Assembly: GCA_019914995.1 (NCBI GenBank) | Contig: CM034130.1 | Coordinates: forward strand, 496,001-560,000 | Reading direction: 5' to 3' | DNA from: Acanthochlamys bracteata | Lineage: Eukaryota > Streptophyta > Magnoliopsida > Pandanales > Velloziaceae | DNA length: 64,000 nt | Shown here: in pieces, positions 24,454-57,343 of the stretch | Layout of the letters: each line of letters opens with the position of its first letter | Numbering within the stretch: position 1 is the first letter of the stretch | The notes under the pieces: model-generated | Seen by the model: only the letters and a program-made list of their open reading frames with translations | What the model was told of the DNA's origin: nothing | Databases searched by the model: none | Position numbers and translations under genes: made by a program

Positions 24454-25511
24454 CTAGTTGGCACTAGATGATGGAGGATGAGCAATTGACAGCATCAACA
24501 TGAGAAGACTCTTACGTCGCTCTTTCGGATATCTAATTAATGCTCTTAACTTACTAGGATTGTCTACAAGAAAAAGATAGCATTGCTCATGGAGATGATC
24601 TTTAATCCCAAGTTCATCTAGAAGATTCACAATCTCAAACTCCGGGATTGGAAGGGGTTCCTTAACCATATCTTTTGCAGAGCTGATTATAGCAGTAGCA
24701 ATTTTGTCCATAGCTTCTTTCACAAACTCCATGCTAGCACCCTCCTTTGCCTTTCCTTTTGATTTCTTAGAAGCACGCTCAGATATCTGTGATTGTTCAT
24801 CAACAGGTGCACTTGTAGGTCCATTTTCAATCTCCTGATTATTCACAAAGAAACCATCCAAATCAACACGATTTTCAAATATCAATTCATCTCTTTCTTC
24901 AATAGTGTCTACATTTGCCTCCTTTCTCAAACTCTCTTTCATCTCATATGAAGTCCAAGCTCTACCAACTGCAACTCTATCACCTCCATAAAGTATGCTC
25001 AACTTGTCGTAAGGGAGGGAAAATGATTTGTACCTCCATTCAGCAGCTTCAGAATTTTGCTGAAATTAAATAAAAAATACATTTTTATAAAATCAGTAAT
25101 AAGAAATCAAAGTAACAGCACAAAATATTTCTATTTGAAACTAGCAAAAAATAAATGTACCTGAATCAATTGTTCCCACACATTAGGCTCAGCATCAAAT
25201 TTTCCAGTGTCACGATTCCAAGCAAATCCATTAAAGCCACCTTTAAATAAGTCCCAAATCGGAGCAAATTTTTTCTTAATATACTTAATGCGGTTAATAA
25301 TTTTGTCTCTATCTAGTGGTTTATCGGGAAATAATTCTTTCATCTCTTTAGATATAATATCATAAGCTTGTGTCGTGAAATTTCCATTGACTCGATTTCC
25401 CATATTATGTTGACGCAAGAAAGCATCAATAACAGCATTATCCATAGCACTATTCCATACAAGATGATCACTCCTTGTACTTGATTTCGGTGTTTTTCTC
25501 TTTGGTGGCAT
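24454..25511 (-). CDS. Myb/SANT-like ORF1 protein of an old PIF/Harbinger element, open
   Basis: Two exons, complement of 24454-25059 and 25161-25511, give an uninterrupted 318-aa protein. After a basic leader (MPPKRKTPKSSTRSD), residues about 15-117 form a Myb/SANT-like DNA-binding domain of the kind in plant Harbinger ORF1 proteins (VWNSAMDNAVIDAFLRQ...PNVWEQLIQ). A lysine-rich linker (KKSKGKAKEG) precedes a C-terminal helical region with DELGIKDHLHEQCYLFLVDNPSKLRALI. In PIF/Pong elements ORF1 binds DNA and escorts the transposase to the nucleus. The neighbouring transposase is decayed (25740-26700), so either the element died recently or this ORF is kept by the host. Which is not resolved. 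Confidence 0.75.
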
Positions 25512-47593: not shown

Positions 47594-47695
47594 TTATAAT
47601 GGAGTACCAATCTCACTACGGTCAGTGGTAGGACTGTAAAGAGCAGACCTGTTCTTGGGTCTATTTTCTTCAAGCTGCTTGACAACTTCATTCAT
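47594..47695 (-). pseudogene. TMKL1: Detached 3' end of the TMKL1 gene
   Basis: The minus strand reads MNEVVKQLEENRPKNRSA then LYSPTTDRSEIGTPL and a stop, the conserved C-terminus of TMKL1 (Arabidopsis ends ...VVKQLEENRPRNRSALYSPT...). It begins exactly where the Harbinger element ends and continues the frame interrupted at 55368. This piece is the missing tail of the gene at 55368-57343, separated by 7.7 kb of transposon. Confidence 0.88.
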
Positions 47696-48779
47696 GGCCC
47701 TGTTTGGCTGCGCTTTTTTCGGGCTTGTTATATGCGTTTGGCAACAAACGCTTTAAGCTGCTTACAGCAGCTTTTAAAAGCCAAAAATAAAAAGCACCGA
47801 TTCGGTGCTTTTCAAATAAAACCGCACGCGGCTTTTCGTTTCGGGTACATGAAATGATTATTTTACTCATATTAATTTTACAAAATTACAAATTAATATA
47901 TATTTTCTACCGCGTGCTCTAATTCCTAATTTTTTTATTCTTCCGCTGCCTCCGAGCTCCCGATCGCTTTGCTGCCTCCTCCTCCCGATCGTTTCTTCCG
48001 ATCTCTTCGTCTCCAACGCCGATCAATTTTTCGTCCAATCTCTCCGTCCCTATAGATCGTTTCCATTCCGATCTTCGTCTCTGTCGGATTTTTATTTCGA
48101 AGGCAACGGGATTGAACCGCGGTTGAGGTAAATTTTTTTTATTTAGATTTAATTATTTGGTTGCTTATTTATGCGTTGATTTTGTGTAGATTAGTTTTTT
48201 TTTGTTGATTTCGTTGGTGTGGATGGACGGCCGAAGAGATGCGATTTTTAAAATTTTTTTGACTGTGTTAGTGATTGTGATTTTTCGATATTTATGTGTT
48301 AGTGACTATAATTAGTGACTGTGATCGTTATTTATGTTTATTTTTCGTTGCGTTGATTTTTTTTGACAAAGTCTATTGATTTATTCATTCCATAAATTTT
48401 TTTTCTTCTTTGTTTGCGTCCGAATCGATCAAAATGTGAATAAATTATAGTTTTCTTTCTTCAATCGATTGCTTATAAGGATTTTCGAAAGATCGTCGGT
48501 GCAGTTGTCTCTGTACAGGTATTAAAAATTAATTCGGATCTTTGCAGAACTAAATATGTTAAAATTTTGACAGGAATGAAGAATAATTGATCATTTTAAA
48601 AATTTTATGGTTATTTTCTGTTGAAAAGAGTTGCTTGGTGAAGTTGTTTGTAAATTTTAGATTTACTTGTAGTTTTAAAACTGTGTGTGTATTGTTGTAT
48701 GTATATTTGAACTTATCGCTGTTTATTTTTTTACTCAGTTTTGACATTTTGGTTGCTGATAGAATTGTTTGGTGCTTGC

Positions 48780-50260
48780 TGGCCCTTTAATGAATTTTGA
48801 GGGATTTTTGTGTATCCTTGCTGCTTGCCTTATTACCTTTCAGCCCATTTTGGACGGCATGGCAGGGATTGTTATCTTGAATGAGAAGTTTGGCTAGCTT
48901 GATGGTTATTGGTATCATGATAGTAAAATAGATGCTACACTTATCTTAACCAAATATATATGGTTGCTGCGTATACTTACCCTAGCTGGCCCAATGATGA
49001 ATTTGAGGGATTGTTGGTTATCCTTACTGGCAATTAATGAATTTGGAAGTATATTTGCCTATGTATGTCCTTGCTGGCCTGTTGATGATTTTTGAGAGAT
49101 TGTTGGCTATCGTTGCTGGTTTGACTTTAATTTTTGAAGTGGTGTTGTCTATAAACACCCTTAATGGCCCTATGATGATTATTGAGGGATTATCGGATAT
49201 CTTTACTAGCAAGTAAATATTTTTTGAGATATGTTGCCTATATTTTTTTCTTGCTGGCATGTTGATGATGTTTGAGGGATTGTTGGCTATGCTTGCTGGT
49301 TTGGATTAGTTTTTGAAGTGGTGTTGTCTATAAACACCCTTACTGGCCCTATGATGAATTTTGAGGGATTGTCGGTTATCTTTACTAGCAAATAAATATT
49401 TTTTGAGATATGTTGCCTATATTTTTTCCTTGCTGGCCTGTTGATGATTTTTGAGGGATTGCTGGCTATCCTTAGTTGGCAAATAATGAATAATGATGTA
49501 TAACTGCCCTATCTGGATTTTTGAGGGATTGTTGCCTAACCTTGCTGCCCCTATGATGATTTCTGAGGGTTTGTTGTCTTATAAAATACTCAAATGAGAA
49601 AAGATCCCTTGCAGCCCCTTTTGGACGGCATGGCAGGGATCTTTTCTTTAAATGAGATGTTTGGCTAGCTTGATGGTTATTGATAACATGATAATAAACT
49701 AGATGCTACACTTATCTTAACCAAATATGTATGGTTGCTGCCTATACTTACCCTAACTGGCCCAATAATAAATTTTGAGGGATTGTTAGTTATTATTACT
49801 GGCAATTATTAATTTTTGAGGTATATTTGTCTATGCTTGTCCTTACTGACCTGTTGATGATGTTTGAGGGATTGTTGGCTATGCTTGCTGGTTTGGATTA
49901 GTTTTGAGAGTGGTGTTGCATATAAACACCCTTGCTAGCTCTATGATGAATTTTGAAGGAATCGTTGGCTATCCTTGCTGGCAAGTAGTGAATTTTGATG
50001 TATATTTGCCTGTGCTTGCCCTACCTGGCCCTATCTGGATTTTTGAGGATTGTTGTCTAATCTTGCTTCTCCTATGATGATTTTCTGAGAGTTTGTTATC
50101 TTATACATTGCTAAAATGAGATGTTTGATTGCCTTATAATCTTGCAGCCCCTTTTGGATGGCATGGTAAGAATGTTAGTTTGAATGAGATGTTTGACTAG
50201 CTTGATAGTTAATAATATCATGATAGTGGAATGGATGCTACACTTACTTTTGAAGGGATT
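48780..50260 (+). repeat. Degenerate higher-order tandem repeats inside the Harbinger element
   Basis: Sub-units of about 90 bp, paired into ~180-bp units (starts near 49083, 49263, 49443), share the core TGATGATTTTTGAGGGATTG. A longer block beginning CAGCCC(C/A)TTTTGGA(C/T)GGCATGG recurs at about 48841, 49614 and 50145. The units have drifted, so this part of the array is older than the 106-bp part. Confidence 0.8.
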
Positions 50261-50284
50261 TTTTATACAACTCTCAACTGAGAT

Positions 50285-51440
50285 GCTATCCTTGCTGGCC
50301 TTTTTTTTGAGTTGTTGTGGTGATGCTGTCCAGGCTCAGTCTTGCTGCCCTATGATGAATTTTAAGGGTATTTTCGCCCTATAATGTCCTGCTATCTTTG
50401 TTGGCCTTTTTTTTGAGTTGTTGTGGTGGTGCTGCCCAGACTCAGTCTTGCTGCCCTATGATGAATTTTGAGGATGTTTTTGCTCTATAATGTCATGCTA
50501 TTCTTGCTGGCCTTTTTTTTGAGTTATTGTGGTGGTGCTGCCCAGGCTTAGTCTTGCTGCCCTATGATGAATTTTGAGGGTGTTTTTGCTCTATAATGTC
50601 ATGCTATCATTGCTGGCCTTTTTTTTGAGTTGTTATGGTGGTGCTGCCCAGGCTCAGTCTTGCTGCCCTATGATGAATTTTGAGGATGTTTTTTCCCTAT
50701 AATGTCATGCTATCATTGCTGGCCTCTTTCTTGAGTTATTGTGGTGGTGCTGCCCAGGCTTAGTCTTGCTGCCCTATGATGAATTTTGAGGGTATTTTTG
50801 TCCTATAATGTCATGCTATCCTTGCTGGCCTTTTTTTTGAGTTGTTGTGGTGGTGCTGCCTAGGCTCAGTCTTGCTGCCCTATGATGAATTTTGAGGATG
50901 TTTTTGCGCTATAATGTCATGCTATCCTTACTGGCCTTTTTTTTGAGTTATTGTGGTAGGTTTGCCCCCGTGCTCACTCTTCTTTGCCCTATGATGAATT
51001 TTGAGGGTGTTTTTGCCCTATAATGTCATGCTATCATTGCTGGCCTTTTCTTTGAGTTGTTGTGGTGGTGCTGCCCAGGCTCAGTCTTGCTGCCCTATGA
51101 TGAATTTTGAGGATGTTTTTTCCCTATAATGTCATGCTATTCTTGCTGGCCTTTTTTTTGAGTTATTGTGGTGGTGCTGCCCAGGCTCAGTCTTGCTGCC
51201 CTATGATGAATTTTGAGGGTATTTTTGCCCTATAATGTCATGCTATCCTTGCTGGCCTTTTTTTTAAGTTGTTGTGGTGGTGCTGCCCAGGCTCAGTCTT
51301 GTTGCCCTATGATGAATTTTGAGGGTGTTTTTGACATATAATGTCATGCTATCCTTGTTGGCCTTTTTTTAAGTTGTTGTGGTGGTGTTGCCTAGGCTCA
51401 GTTTTGCTGCCTTATGATGAATTTTGAGGATTTTTTGCCT
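50285..51440 (+). repeat. Eleven-copy 106-bp tandem array inside the Harbinger element
   Basis: The marker GAGTTGTTGTGGTGGTGCTG starts units at 50309, 50415, 50521, 50627, 50733, 50839, 50945, 51054, 51160, 51266 and 51371. Spacing is 106 bp except one of 109 and one of 105. Each unit also contains CAGTCTTGCTGCCCTATGATG and ATAATGTCATGCTATC. Low divergence and constant length point to recent expansion. A degenerate continuation with ~60-bp units runs to about 51865. Confidence 0.92.
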
Positions 51441-51865
51441 ATTGGTGCTGCCTATATGCTTCCTCGCTGCCCTATGATGAATTTTAAGGGTTTTTTTGCC
51501 TGTTGGTGCTTCCTTGCTGCCCTATGATGAATTTTAAGGGTTTTTTGCCTGTTGGTGCTGCCTATATGCTTCCTCACTTTCCTATGATGAATTTTGAGGG
51601 TTTTTTTGCCTGTTGGTGCTTCCTTACTGCCCTACGATGATGTTTGTGGGTTTTTTAGCCTGCTGGTGTTTCCTTGCTGCCCTATGATGATGTTTGAGGG
51701 ATTGTTGGCTATCCTTGCTACCATATAAATTTTTTAGGTATATTTGCCTTACATGCTACCTTGCTGCCCTATGATGATGTTTGAGGGATGTTTGCTTTAT
51801 ACAATGCTCAAATGAGATGCTTTCTTGCTGCCCTATGATGATATTTGAGGGATTTATTTTCATAT
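51441..51865 (+). repeat. Short-unit tail of the tandem array
   Basis: Units of about 60-65 bp with the core CTTGCTGCCCTATGATGAATT followed by a T-rich run and GCCTGTTGGTGCT repeat up to the ORF1 start. The core is the same as in the 106-bp units, so the whole 3-kb array has one origin. Confidence 0.75.
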
Positions 51866-51871
51866 GTTTAG

Positions 51872-52867
51872 ATGGAATCCTCAAAATCACGTCGAGCAAG
51901 AAAGGTGAATCCGATTAGGTGGACAGATGCTATCCACGTTAAGTTTATTGAATATTGTGAACAAGAGATATCTAAGGGGAATAGGCCAGGAACCTATTTT
52001 AATGTGCAAGGGTGGGCAAATATCAAAAAATCATTTGAAGAATTTTATGGCCAAAAGGTTGACCGGAAATAATTAAAAAATCATTGGGATGGTATGAAGA
52101 GGATTACAATAATTATAAATCGTTGGTTCGTGGAGAGTCTGGTTTGGGATGGAATTATACTCGCAATACAATCGCTGCAGATGAGGATTGGTGGGAAGAA
52201 AAAATTAAGGTATTTTTATCTAATCGTAAAAAATTGTTAACTAATTTTTTAATTAATGAACTCTTTTTTTTTTAAGGCATACCCTAAGTTTAAAAAATTT
52301 AAGGGAAAAGATTTATCTATATACCGCGAACGGTACGCGGTGTTATTTGATGATCTTGTTGCCAATGGTTCGCGGGCTTGGGCACCATCACAAGTTCAAC
52401 AGGAGACTGCACTTTCAAACCCATCGGATTTGGAAGGCAGCGGAGATAGCGACGACGTTCGAGCCAATGAAGAACCTCCACCTGCATTTCAAGTTCCCTC
52501 TCCTATCATTACTGATAATGATCTCTTTTCACAATCTTTTTCTATATTTCAAAATCCTTTAAGATCAGAAAGTAGTGGTAGGAAGCGAAAGAGTTCCGGA
52601 TCATCTGGAAAGGAGTATATCGGTGACATGACAGAGATAATGCGTCAAAGACATGCAATGACGTTATCGATACCAACCATCCGTCAATGTTTGGCGATAT
52701 TGGACACTATTTCGGAAATAGAAGCCGGTAGCTCCCTAGCCCATTATGCAGCATGTGTTTTGACTAAGAAAGAAAATCGTGAAGTCTTCATGAGTTATCC
52801 TAATGCTGTAGCTCGTTATAGTTGGCTGATGTTTCACTTTAACTATTTTGGACCGAAAAAATCTTAA
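51872..52867 (+). pseudogene. Broken ORF1 (Myb/SANT-like) of the large Harbinger element
   Basis: The first frame begins RRARKVNPIRWTDAIHVKFIEYCEQE and continues VQGWANIKKSFEEFYGQKVDRK, a Myb/SANT-like DNA-binding domain, but ends in a stop at 52070-52072 where the family has a glutamine. A few codons later (52090-52100) the frame shifts and continues EDYNNYKSLVRGESGLGWNYT to a donor at 52209/52210. The second exon (52277-52867) is open, with KFKKFKGKDLSIYRERY and a C-terminal helical domain (MTEIMRQRHAMTLSIPTIRQCL...). Two lesions therefore make this ORF1 non-functional as read. Confidence 0.82.
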
Positions 52868-53365
52868 ACTAGTTATTGTATGTTGTAATTTGAACATTGT
52901 CGAACATTAGTATGCTATTAGTATTATAAAGTTAGTATATTGTAAATATTATTGAAATGTTGTTATGGTTGTAAAATGATATTATTATATGATATTTGTG
53001 GTTTTTATTGTATGTTGTTATGGTTATTATGTAGTATTATTGTGAATATTTTTGGAATATTATTATCGTGTTAATATGATGTTTGTTAAATAATAATATT
53101 ATAAATATTTTTGGAATAATTTTATAGTAGGCATATGATGTTGTTATGTTATTACTGTGATTTAGTTGGACGTTTAAAATATTATTTTGATAGTATTATG
53201 TTAGTATATTGTATCATGGTGGTAGTATATAATTTGTTCAAAATTATATTATTAGAAAAAAATTTGATATCAATTATAATATTATTGTTTTTTATAATTG
53301 TAAGTTTATACGTATGTTTTTAGTTAATATTGTCATTTAAAATTAATTTTTATATTTGCAGTTAA

Positions 53366-54669
53366 ATGGATCCGTGGGCTAATGATAGTGAGGAAAATGA
53401 TAGTGAAGAAGAATGGACAGACTTATGTGAACAAGCAAATTATACAGCAATGCAGTACTACAATCGACATTTATGTAAACGTCCGTGTCGTACATCTATA
53501 CGAACGGGTAACGTTTTCATAAATGAGATACTGGAAGGAAAAGAAGTTCGTTGCTATCAAACTTTTCAATTGAAGGTACCTGTTTTTTTACAACTATGTG
53601 ATGAGTTGACAAGGTTGTACGACTTAGATGCAACACGTGGAATGTCTGTTCATGAAGAAGTTGCTATCTTTCTCGGAACGTGTGCACATGGTCTAGGAAA
53701 TAGAGTAAATCAAAAAATTTTTACTCATTCGGGTGAGACGATTCATCGGCATTTTCATAGAGTGCTTCACGCTGTGCTGAGATTGGCTGCAAATATTATA
53801 AAGCCTCATGATAGATATAACGAGGGAGAAGCATTTCATAAACCACAGAATGCACGTTATCTTTCATGGTTTAAAGTAAGTGATCAAGTCGAATTTCGGC
53901 ACTTAGATTGTTATAATAGATAAGTTGAATTTTTTATTTTAATCTTAAATTTTGAATACAGGATTGTATTGGAGCTATCGATGGGACACATATCAAAGCA
54001 ACTATACGGCCAGAAGATGTAACACCTTACATTGGACGTAAAGGGTATGCTACTCAAAATATATTGGCGGTATGTGATTTTAATATGTGTTTTACATTTG
54101 CATGGACCGGATGGGAAGGGTCAGCTCACGATTCACGCATACTGAATGAAGCATTACGCAGGCCTGATTTGAGATTTCCTCATCCTCGCGGAGATAAATA
54201 TTATTTAGTGGATGGAGAATATAAACATACCTATAGATATATGGGTCCTTATAAAGGCCGGGATGTAAGATATTATCTGGAAGACTTTCGTCGTGCAAAT
54301 ACACCACAAATTCGAGCGCCTAGAGGGAGAAAAGAAAAGTTTAACTTTCTACATTCTTCATGCAGGACTATAATTGAACGTACATTTGGCGTATGGAAGG
54401 CGCGCTTTGCAATTTTGAGAGATATGCCGCCATACTTAATAGAGGTACAACGTAATATTATTATTGCGACAATGGCGATACATAACTATATCAGGATTAA
54501 AGGAGCAGATGAAGCATTTACAGATGCTGAGCGTGAAACTTATCTACCGTCAGCATTTGAAGCATCTTCTAGTACATCAAACGTTCCACCCGAGGATGAA
54601 TCCGATCGTAATGATAGGTGGGATGCATGTCGTGATGCAATTGTAAGTGAAATATATAGTCATTTATGA
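53366..54669 (+). CDS. PIF/Harbinger DDE transposase, apparently intact
   Basis: Two exons, 53366-53875 and 53962-54669, join in phase to give 405 aa with no interruption. After an acidic start (MDPWANDSEENDSEEEW) come the family blocks CRTSIRTGNVFINEILEG, VPVFLQLCDEL, MSVHEEVAIFLGTCAHG, then the catalytic core in exon 2: GAIDGTHIKA (D177), FAWTGWEGSAHDSRIL (D227), YYLVDGEY and RTIIERTFGVWKARF (E309). It belongs to the DDE_Tnp_4 family. It would cut the element at its inverted repeats. In PIF/Pong elements it works with the ORF1 protein, which is broken in this copy. Good start context and an acceptor at 53961 support the model. Confidence 0.9.
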
Positions 54670-55366
54670 ATGTTGTGTTTTTGTTTCAATTTATGATTGT
54701 ATTTTATTTTGTTACAATATGTATGACCCTATAATATTTATATTAAAGTTTGTAACAATTTGACTTTATTAGTTGTTTAATATTTATTTAATATTTTTAT
54801 ATTATAAAAATAAAAAAGTTAAATTTATACAGATTTAAATACATATCAAAATTATTTATTAATTTATCATAATAATACTAAATTTACAAAATAATATAAA
54901 ATTTTTTTAATAACTATTAAATATATTTTTCAAATTTAATATTATAATAATTATTATGTAATTAATATTATTCAATTTAATTATTGATTGATATTAATAA
55001 TATAATTTATTAATAAGTTTATAAATATTAATATAAGTAATTATTTATATAATTTTTACATAATAAATTTATTAAATTTTAAAAAAATAAATAATATATA
55101 AAAAATAATTAAAAATTTTATAATATATCAATTACTATATACTTAAGGGCATTTCAGTCATTATATATCACATATAGAAATAAGGTTAAATTTAGCCAAA
55201 CACTTCATTCAGCTTTCGGCATTCAAAAGCACGATACAGTAAAAATTTATCCAAACACTTTTCAGCATAAAGCTACTTTTACAGTAAAAATTCTACAGCC
55301 GCTTATAGCACTCTAAAGTAGCTTTACTTCAAAAGCACAAAAATTTGAGCACATCCAAACAGAGCC
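54670..55366. other. AT-rich 3' flank and right end of the Harbinger element
   Basis: Very AT-rich noncoding DNA (54770-55140), then a subterminal region with repeated AAAGC/AGCTTT motifs and the right inverted repeat at about 55345-55366. Confidence 0.7.
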
Positions 55367-55367
55367 C

Positions 55368-57343
55368 AGGACGGAGGGAAACAACCGGAGCACAGCAACC
55401 CATTGCAAGCTTCAAAGCAGGAATCAATCCGTCTTCAGTCGGACTGCGTACACCTTTCAACAGTTCAACATCAAACACTTCCATCGTTGTTTCTTCTAAC
55501 ACTGCTGCTTTAACCATCGACGGCAAATCTATCGTTTCGCCGTTTGATGAATCTTTCCCGGGTTTTATCCCCATTAAAATTTCTAAGAGAAGAATTCCGA
55601 ATGCGTAAACGTCTGTTCTTGGACAACATTTCTTGATTTTGTGTAGTTCAGGAGCTTTGCACCCTTCTGATTTAGCGATCGATACCATCTCGTCGGCGAC
55701 TGAGGGAATCATGAGCTTGTTTAATCCATATTCAGTCAATCTCGGAACAAAGAATTCATCAACTAAAACATTCTTTGAACGAACATTGCCGTGAATGATC
55801 GGCTGATCATGCCCTGTGTGAAGGTATGCAAGCGCTCTCGCAACACCGAGCGCAATCTTGTGGCGCCTTGCCCAGTTTAACAACGGCCTCCCTGCTCTGG
55901 TCTCTGAATAAACACAGTCCCAAAGCAAACCTTGAACTAATGCAAATGAATATGAATAATCCAATTCGAAGATTTAAATCTTACCGTCGAGTAATTCATG
56001 GAGTGTTTGATTAGGAAAATAATCGTAAATAAGAAGTTTCTCATCATGTTTGCCTTGATAGAAAGCTCGGAGAATGACAAGATTTTCATGCCGAGCACGG
56101 CCGAGTTGTTTGATCACCGGCAAGCAAGAACCGGTGTCCATTGAAGTCCCTTCTCTTAAAAGTCTCAAAGAAATATGACCACCATCTAAAAGCTTTGCTT
56201 TGTAAACAGTTCCATAGCTTGTTTTCTCCATTACTTGCCCTGTAGCATTGAGCACTTCTTCAAGTGTCAAGTGCTCACCTCCCTGAAAAACAATCAGCTT
56301 TCCTTCTCCACCGCCGGAGTTCATCATCTGGCCTTCTTCAATCTCCATTTCAATTTCTTCACTGTCTAGTTTGTTTCTTGCGCCAGCTCTTCTTCTCCCT
56401 TGAACCTAACCGATGAACAGAGATGCTACCACTACTAAACCTGCCATTAGACCAAATACAAGCCCAGAAATGGCGCCGGAGCTCAAACCATTGCCAGATT
56501 TTGAGCTACATGAAGCCAGCGGTCCGCCACATAACGAATCACTGTTGCCTTCGAAAGCTGCGGCAGAAAACTTGGAGAATGAGCCCGGGAGCTGGCCGGA
56601 GAAGTTGTTGAAAGAAACGTTGAGCTTGGTAAGGCTTGGTAATGAAGTAGCAAGAGTTGGAGGAATTGAACCCGAAAACTTGTTACTCCCGAAATTTAAT
56701 TCTTCAATGCCATGGAAACCAAGAATGAACACCGGGAAATCACCTTCGAATAGATTATCAACGAAATCGAGAACACGAAGATGGTCGCAGGTAGTGTTGG
56801 CTACAGAAGGAACAGGGATTTCACCGTAGAAATTGTTTCCATGGATCCGTAGAGAGGTAACACGATCACAAAGGCTCCACAATGAAGGTGGAAGAAACCC
56901 AGATAAAGAATTACCGCTGAGATCAATGTTGGACAACGAAGGACTGTTGAAAATCTCAAGAGGGACATGGCCAGAAATAGAGTTAACAGGTAAAAGAAGA
57001 GATTGCAGAGAAGAAAACTGGCCAATGGAAGCAGGTAGAACTCCGGCGAGCTTAGAAGCAGGTAGACGAAGCGAAAGAAGCTGAAGAGTTGGGTCTGAAA
57101 TAAGTGTCAGGTTAGTTCTTTCTGCAGCGGTTTTACATGAAACAGACCACTGTAGACCGATCCATTGGCAAACTGGTATAGATAAGTCCCATGAAGCAAG
57201 TTCTTGGTTTGCTTCTTCAACGCCATTGCCTTGCAACGATGGCTTTATTTTATTCAACAGAAGAACAACGTCGGGTGAGTAGTGTGGAGATAATGCAGAC
57301 GAAAATGTGAAGAGGATGAAGAAGAAAAGAGAAGAGAAGCCAT
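55368..57343 (-). pseudogene. TMKL1: TMKL1 receptor-like pseudokinase gene, disrupted
   Basis: The minus strand encodes a leucine-rich-repeat receptor matching Arabidopsis TMKL1: a hydrophobic signal (GFSSLFFFILFTFSSA), an N-terminal cap, about six LRRs (57100-56540), a membrane span (AISGLVFGLMAGLVVVASLF), and a kinase-like domain. Exons are about 57341-55985 and 55903-55368. The kinase is degenerate by family standards: HGN replaces HRD, TEYG replaces DFG, and the VAIK lysine position reads SLRLL. This copy is also damaged. No in-frame ATG precedes the signal peptide (the only nearby ATG, 57341-57343, is out of frame, and an in-frame TAG lies 15 bases further upstream). A TAG at 56406-56408 follows the membrane span where the family has tyrosine. 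The last exon is cut by the transposon at 55367. It is almost certainly a pseudogene. Confidence 0.88.

Follow-up and report, generated by a model that had tools for sequence, protein, structure and literature searches.

Plant transposons of the PIF/Harbinger superfamily, such as Ping, Pong, PIF and Jing, carry a DDE_Tnp_4 transposase and a separate Myb/SANT-like gene, end in short terminal inverted repeats and duplicate 3 bp of their target. Ping and Pong require both proteins for mobility (PMC2836001, in excerpt). Insertion of this superfamily into coding exons is already known. In rice, mJing, an element of about 246 bp whose movement was seen, is inserted in exon 6 of HTD1 with a clean TAC duplication (PMC6850418, in excerpt). 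DNA transposon insertions in rice are reported as generally precise, with simple duplications (PMC4423477, in excerpt). The gene TMKL1 has been placed in subfamily III of the leucine-rich repeat (LRR) receptor-like kinases (PMC5179525, in excerpt), and in Brassica rapa it has few introns (PMC4654520, in excerpt). Here we analyze a 64,000-nucleotide stretch of the Acanthochlamys bracteata genome (the window; C5:496001-560000 within an assembly of 195.5 Mb and 557 contigs), where a PIF/Harbinger-type element interrupts the last exon of a TMKL1-like gene. We provisionally assign this gene to TMKL1, whose kinase-like domain is said to be unusual.

Our reading, to which we assign a probability of roughly 0.88, is that the window gene is a decaying duplicate, a pseudogene split by the Harbinger element, with an intact homeolog on contig C3. 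A large-scale duplication would have left two homeologous genes for TMKL1-like LRR receptor (pseudo)kinases. Fairly recently, an element from a family of dozens of copies would have entered the last exon of one of them, severing the last 33 codons. With a start frameshift, a nonsense codon and the insertion, the window copy would now be a pseudogene whose role has been left to the C3 copy.

On the minus strand, the gene has two exons between the ATG at 57343 and the last base of the TAA at 47594:

55985-57343, minus strand: exon 1, covering the LRR ectodomain, membrane helix and start of the kinase-like domain (frame reading, C3 comparison)
56406-56408, minus strand: in-frame TAG (FIG-stop-VQGRRR), directly following the membrane helix, where the C3 copy has TGG
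55904-55984, minus strand: intron of 81 bp with GT...AG borders; the C3 copy has an intron at the matching place
55367-55903, minus strand: exon 2, 5' part, kinase-like domain up to ...VVSLRP (PK_Tyr_Ser-Thr, 4.1e-14)
47594-47695, minus strand: exon 2, 3' part, 33 codons and TAA (frame reading, genome search)

An earlier, sequence-only reading had described a TMKL1 gene cut in two at 47594-57343, coordinates that are right to a few bases. The 5' part halts at ...SLRP (55367). The frame reads ...LAMGCCAPVVSLRP, including CAPVVSLRP, up to the element, and at 55367/55366 it runs into the inverted repeat, just where it had been said to stop matching its family. It enters the element as GLCLDVLKFLCF and reaches a stop at 55331-55329. 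The C-terminus claimed for the far side is there too, on the same strand and with a proper stop: the 33 codons and TAA at 47695-47594 read MNEVVKQLEENRPKNRSALYSPTTDRSEIGTPL-stop, beginning MNEVVKQLEENRPKNRSA and ending GTPL-stop. Pfam and the uninterrupted C3 copy also bear out an insertion within the last exon (exon 2 of 2) by a Harbinger of about 7.7 kb, here 7,671 bp.

Pfam matches to LRR_1, LRR_4, LRR_8 and kinase families indicate that LRRs and a kinase-like domain are present. By eye, the latter has HGN and TEYG in place of the usual HRD and DFG. The window gene therefore resembles TMKL1 in its LRR ectodomain, membrane helix, kinase-like domain with unusual motifs and few introns, and differs from it in the start frameshift, the TAG and the 7.7-kb insertion. 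A structure-database search with the middle of the kinase-like domain matched 14 kinase sequences, mainly plant receptor kinases, none of them TMKL1 by name.

The intact counterpart on C3 (locus L019, C3:9728555-9730482) consists of two exons with a frame of 672 codons, has its start in frame and lacks the element. Both window pieces match one contiguous stretch of it, where they lie 2 bp apart. DNA identity between the copies is 84% in the main part and 81% in the tail and downstream part. The 3' piece with its downstream DNA has two places in the assembly, the second at E = 1.5e-40, and the kinase-like piece of exon 2 has two close matches, at 100% and 90%, the next being at 43% (best 150 of 633 candidates). 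A chance match of the gene pieces is therefore excluded. Neither a third close copy nor an allele free of the element turned up in the assembly, in the search with the 3' piece or in protein searches (best 130 of 623 and best 150 of 633 candidates).

The two loci also share their neighbours. A DUF1644 gene and a pectate lyase gene flank TMKL1 on either side, both in the window and on C3. The best other match of the DUF1644 gene is at C3:9684551 (85% amino acid identity) and that of the pectate lyase gene at C3:9734931 (90%), each in the same order and on the same strand. Synonymous divergence (Ks) between the window and C3 copies is 0.41 for TMKL1, 0.35 for DUF1644 and 0.42 for pectate lyase. 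Because the flanking genes (two tested) are collinear and the Ks values similar, the loci are homeologs from a large-scale duplication. The sequence-only reading had named, as the case against itself, an intact second locus that donated both pieces. An intact locus does exist, but it is a syntenic homeolog, diverged on both sides of the insertion (81% and 84%), which rules it out as the donor.

At least three lesions are present in the window gene, namely the start frameshift, the TAG and the insertion. The sequence-only reading had missed the first two, and also that the junction has lost 2 bp and shows no perfect target duplication. Translation from the ATG at 57343-57341 does not follow the LRR frame and meets a stop after 29 codons. 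The LRR frame itself spans 57359 to 56406 and closes just upstream of 57359. Its first in-frame ATG, at 56447, lies within the membrane helix. Small indels relative to the C3 homeolog shift the window frame in the signal-peptide region. The last 33 codons are separated, as had been claimed, but the gene they belong to is not otherwise whole. With the start codon out of frame and a TAG after the membrane helix, the window gene is in all likelihood a pseudogene, one that the insertion need not have killed.

The ratio of nonsynonymous to synonymous divergence (Ka/Ks) for the window and C3 copies is 0.186 for TMKL1 (643 codons), 0.215 for DUF1644 and 0.171 for pectate lyase. Within the TMKL1 gene, the ratio is 0.273 for the part preceding the TAG (Ks 0.30) and 0.136 between the TAG and the element (Ks 0.56); the 33-codon tail gives 0.143, based on just 8 changes (Ks 0.28). 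No relaxation is seen in the kinase-like part, although the TAG would exclude it from translation. This favours a late TAG or, less likely, a gene that is not dead. Decay spreading from the element through methylation finds no support: transitions from GC to AT against the reverse number 59:44 in exon 1 and 21:18 in exon 2, and 51:35 and 24:22 in the neighbouring DUF1644 and pectate lyase genes. Ks of the TMKL1 pair is uneven within 55985-57343 when compared with L019, rising from 0.30 ahead of the TAG to 0.56 across the kinase-like part.

The element is of PIF/Harbinger type and is laid out as follows:

47696-55366, plus strand (that of the transposase): whole element, 7,671 bp (ends, Pfam, family copies)
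47696-47707, plus strand: left terminal inverted repeat, GGCCCTGTTTGG (sequence ends compared)
48979-51690, plus strand: internal tandem arrays with units of 90/179, 106 and 50/60/110 bp (repeat analysis)
51872-52867, plus strand: Myb/SANT-like gene of the open reading frame 1 (ORF1) type, broken (Pfam, comparison with three relatives)
53366-54669, plus strand: transposase, with exon 1 at about 53366-53875, an intron, and exon 2 at about 53962-54669 (borders by eye)
55355-55366, plus strand: right terminal inverted repeat, CCAAACAGAGCC, sharing 11 of 12 bases with the left repeat

Pfam assigns the transposase to DDE_Tnp_4 (PF13359, E = 6.5e-21) and Plant_tran (1.8e-8); candidate D, D and E motifs read by eye are AIDGTH, LVDGEY and IIERTF. 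The second gene matches Myb_DNA-bind_3 (PF12776, E = 3e-7). It is broken by a TAA at 52070-52072, where all three relatives compared have CAA, and by a 1-bp deletion farther on. The transposase of the window copy is open in both exons, and the other 19 of the 20 copies compared have a stop or break in exon 1, exon 2 or both (exon-1 alignments read by eye, exon-2 stops counted). Because Ping and Pong need both proteins to move and the Myb gene is broken here, the window copy is probably not autonomous by itself. It differs from Ping, Pong, PIF and Jing in its 7.7-kb length with internal tandem arrays, its broken Myb gene and its imperfect duplication. Unlike the short mJing of HTD1, it is a coding copy, and the gene it interrupts carries further lesions. 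Judging by the layout of BLAST matches, the tandem arrays of the window copy are unlike those of three relatives.

The element belongs to a family with many copies in this genome. Searches matched the Myb region at least 41 times, at no fewer than 40 places and at least 39 of them outside the window (best 40 of 129 candidates), the left end at least 47 times (best 40 of 64) and the right end at least 40 times (best 40 of 347), the window being included in all three. These copy numbers are lower bounds, and some copies account for two matches. The right end (55130-55366) gave 347 first-look candidates genome-wide against 64 for the left, under differing word filters; the excess may represent short right-end derivatives.

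Both expected ends were fetched for 19 copies, and six were dropped as at least one end was not found. Eleven of the remaining 13 sister copies have a perfect 3-bp target duplication (TTA in five, ATA in two, and CTA, GTA, TCA and TAA in one each). The other two mismatch at one base, ATA/TTA at L066/L067 on C17 and TAC/TAT at L068/L069 on C12. Harbinger relatives known as Spy reportedly insert without target duplications. Such a lack as a family trait is ruled out here, since the sister copies have them. The duplications of this family are mostly NTA (TTA, ATA, CTA, GTA), whereas those of mPing are mostly TAA (PMC2836001, in excerpt).

Several points weigh against our reading of a decaying, transposon-split duplicate. 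Ka/Ks of the gene is not above that of its neighbours, and its reading frames and splice sites show no other damage. The start frameshift sits in T/C-rich sequence, which may have caused a slip in the assembly, the C3 copy is the sole reference from which the target site before insertion is reconstructed, and both loss of function and the correctness of the assembly are judged from the sequence. The low Ka/Ks, the open LRR frame and the kept splice sites would also suit a leftover gene working in a new form, as a short LRR-membrane protein that terminates with the TAG, or else a kinase-like protein whose end is GLCLDVLKFLCF. We consider this very unlikely, given a frame that closes just upstream of 57359 and offers no in-frame ATG ahead of 56447. 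An assembly artefact, in which the element does not truly join the flanks, is the least probable of the alternatives. That the repeat family has dozens of copies speaks for it, but the window copy differs from all 19 copies set against it (by 3.8% over about 2 kb for the nearest) and both flanks are collinear with the C3 copy. With a Ka/Ks no higher than that of the neighbours, the gene can only have died recently, and its decay appears recent on the time scale of the duplication. A tree of 20 element copies, covering about 2 kb, gives the window copy a branch of its own of 0.0177 per site, an upper bound on the element's time at this site. Set against half of the Ks of 0.41, the insertion would be about 9% as old as the duplication, a rough figure as element and gene rates differ; by these divergences it seems young relative to the duplication. 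The Harbinger insertion may itself have killed the gene, with the TAG and start frameshift following by drift. This order, to which we give somewhat less than even odds, is compatible with a pseudogene and competes only with an earlier death of the gene. Up to 0.018 changes per site over about 2 kb amounts to some 36 changes, enough for one nonsense and one net frameshift mutation, and Ka/Ks does not point to a gene long dead. The same facts are equally compatible with a gene that died first and tolerated the insertion for that reason, and the element removes just the last 33 codons.

The junction is irregular. The C3 site reads TTCAGTCAT-AT-CAGGGCG without interruption, and the window site reads TTCATTCAT / element / CAGGACGG. 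The boundaries proposed by the sequence-only reading hold for the element's ends, both of which are complete, but the join is unclean, with 2 bp of the C3 site absent. The flanking bases, CAT and CAG, are one base apart, so there is no perfect 3-bp target duplication here. When the flanks are joined in silico, the gene frame reads LRPDE-stop; the halves are out of frame because the 2 bp are missing, and a clean split of the gene is ruled out. The balance leans slightly, not firmly, toward an irregular integration or joining event. Complete ends, no duplication and 2 bp of lost target tentatively suggest that an excised, full-length Harbinger was end-joined into a chromosome break and was not integrated by transposase, an idea we hold at clearly less than an even chance. 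A standard insertion whose duplication later decayed comes only a little short of even odds. In one form, a 3-bp duplication (for example ATA within CATATCAGG) lost its extra bases through small deletions; in the other, 5 bp had been deleted earlier and one base of a CAG/CAT duplication was substituted. Duplications of ATA, TTA and CTA do occur at sister copies, and a difference in one of three bases, like CAT/CAG, is seen in two of the 13. Yet the first form needs two small deletions that each stop exactly at the element's last base, the second needs an unrelated 5-bp deletion and a substitution, and CAT and CAG are already native neighbours of the site in the C3 copy. One irregular joining event accounts for the junction, whereas these rivals need more steps. 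The missing target duplication bears on the insertion event and not on the element's family, and the junction is only a mild oddity in otherwise ordinary biology.

Elsewhere in the window, a separate Myb/SANT-like frame on the minus strand (24457-25508; PF12776, E = 2.7e-16) adjoins a 203-amino-acid frame without a Pfam match, and the pair is possibly a second transposon remnant. In the literature on TMKL1, Harbinger features, duplicate loss by transposon insertion and break capture, no title among those listed concerns this locus.

The locus would be a clear and roughly dateable case in which one duplicate decays and its twin stays intact. It also corrects a tempting story, as the conspicuous transposon is only one of the gene's lesions. 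For the Harbinger family, it establishes where the copies end and which targets they prefer in this genome, and its junction provides a small testable case of how a DNA transposon can come to lie in a gene with no clean target duplication.

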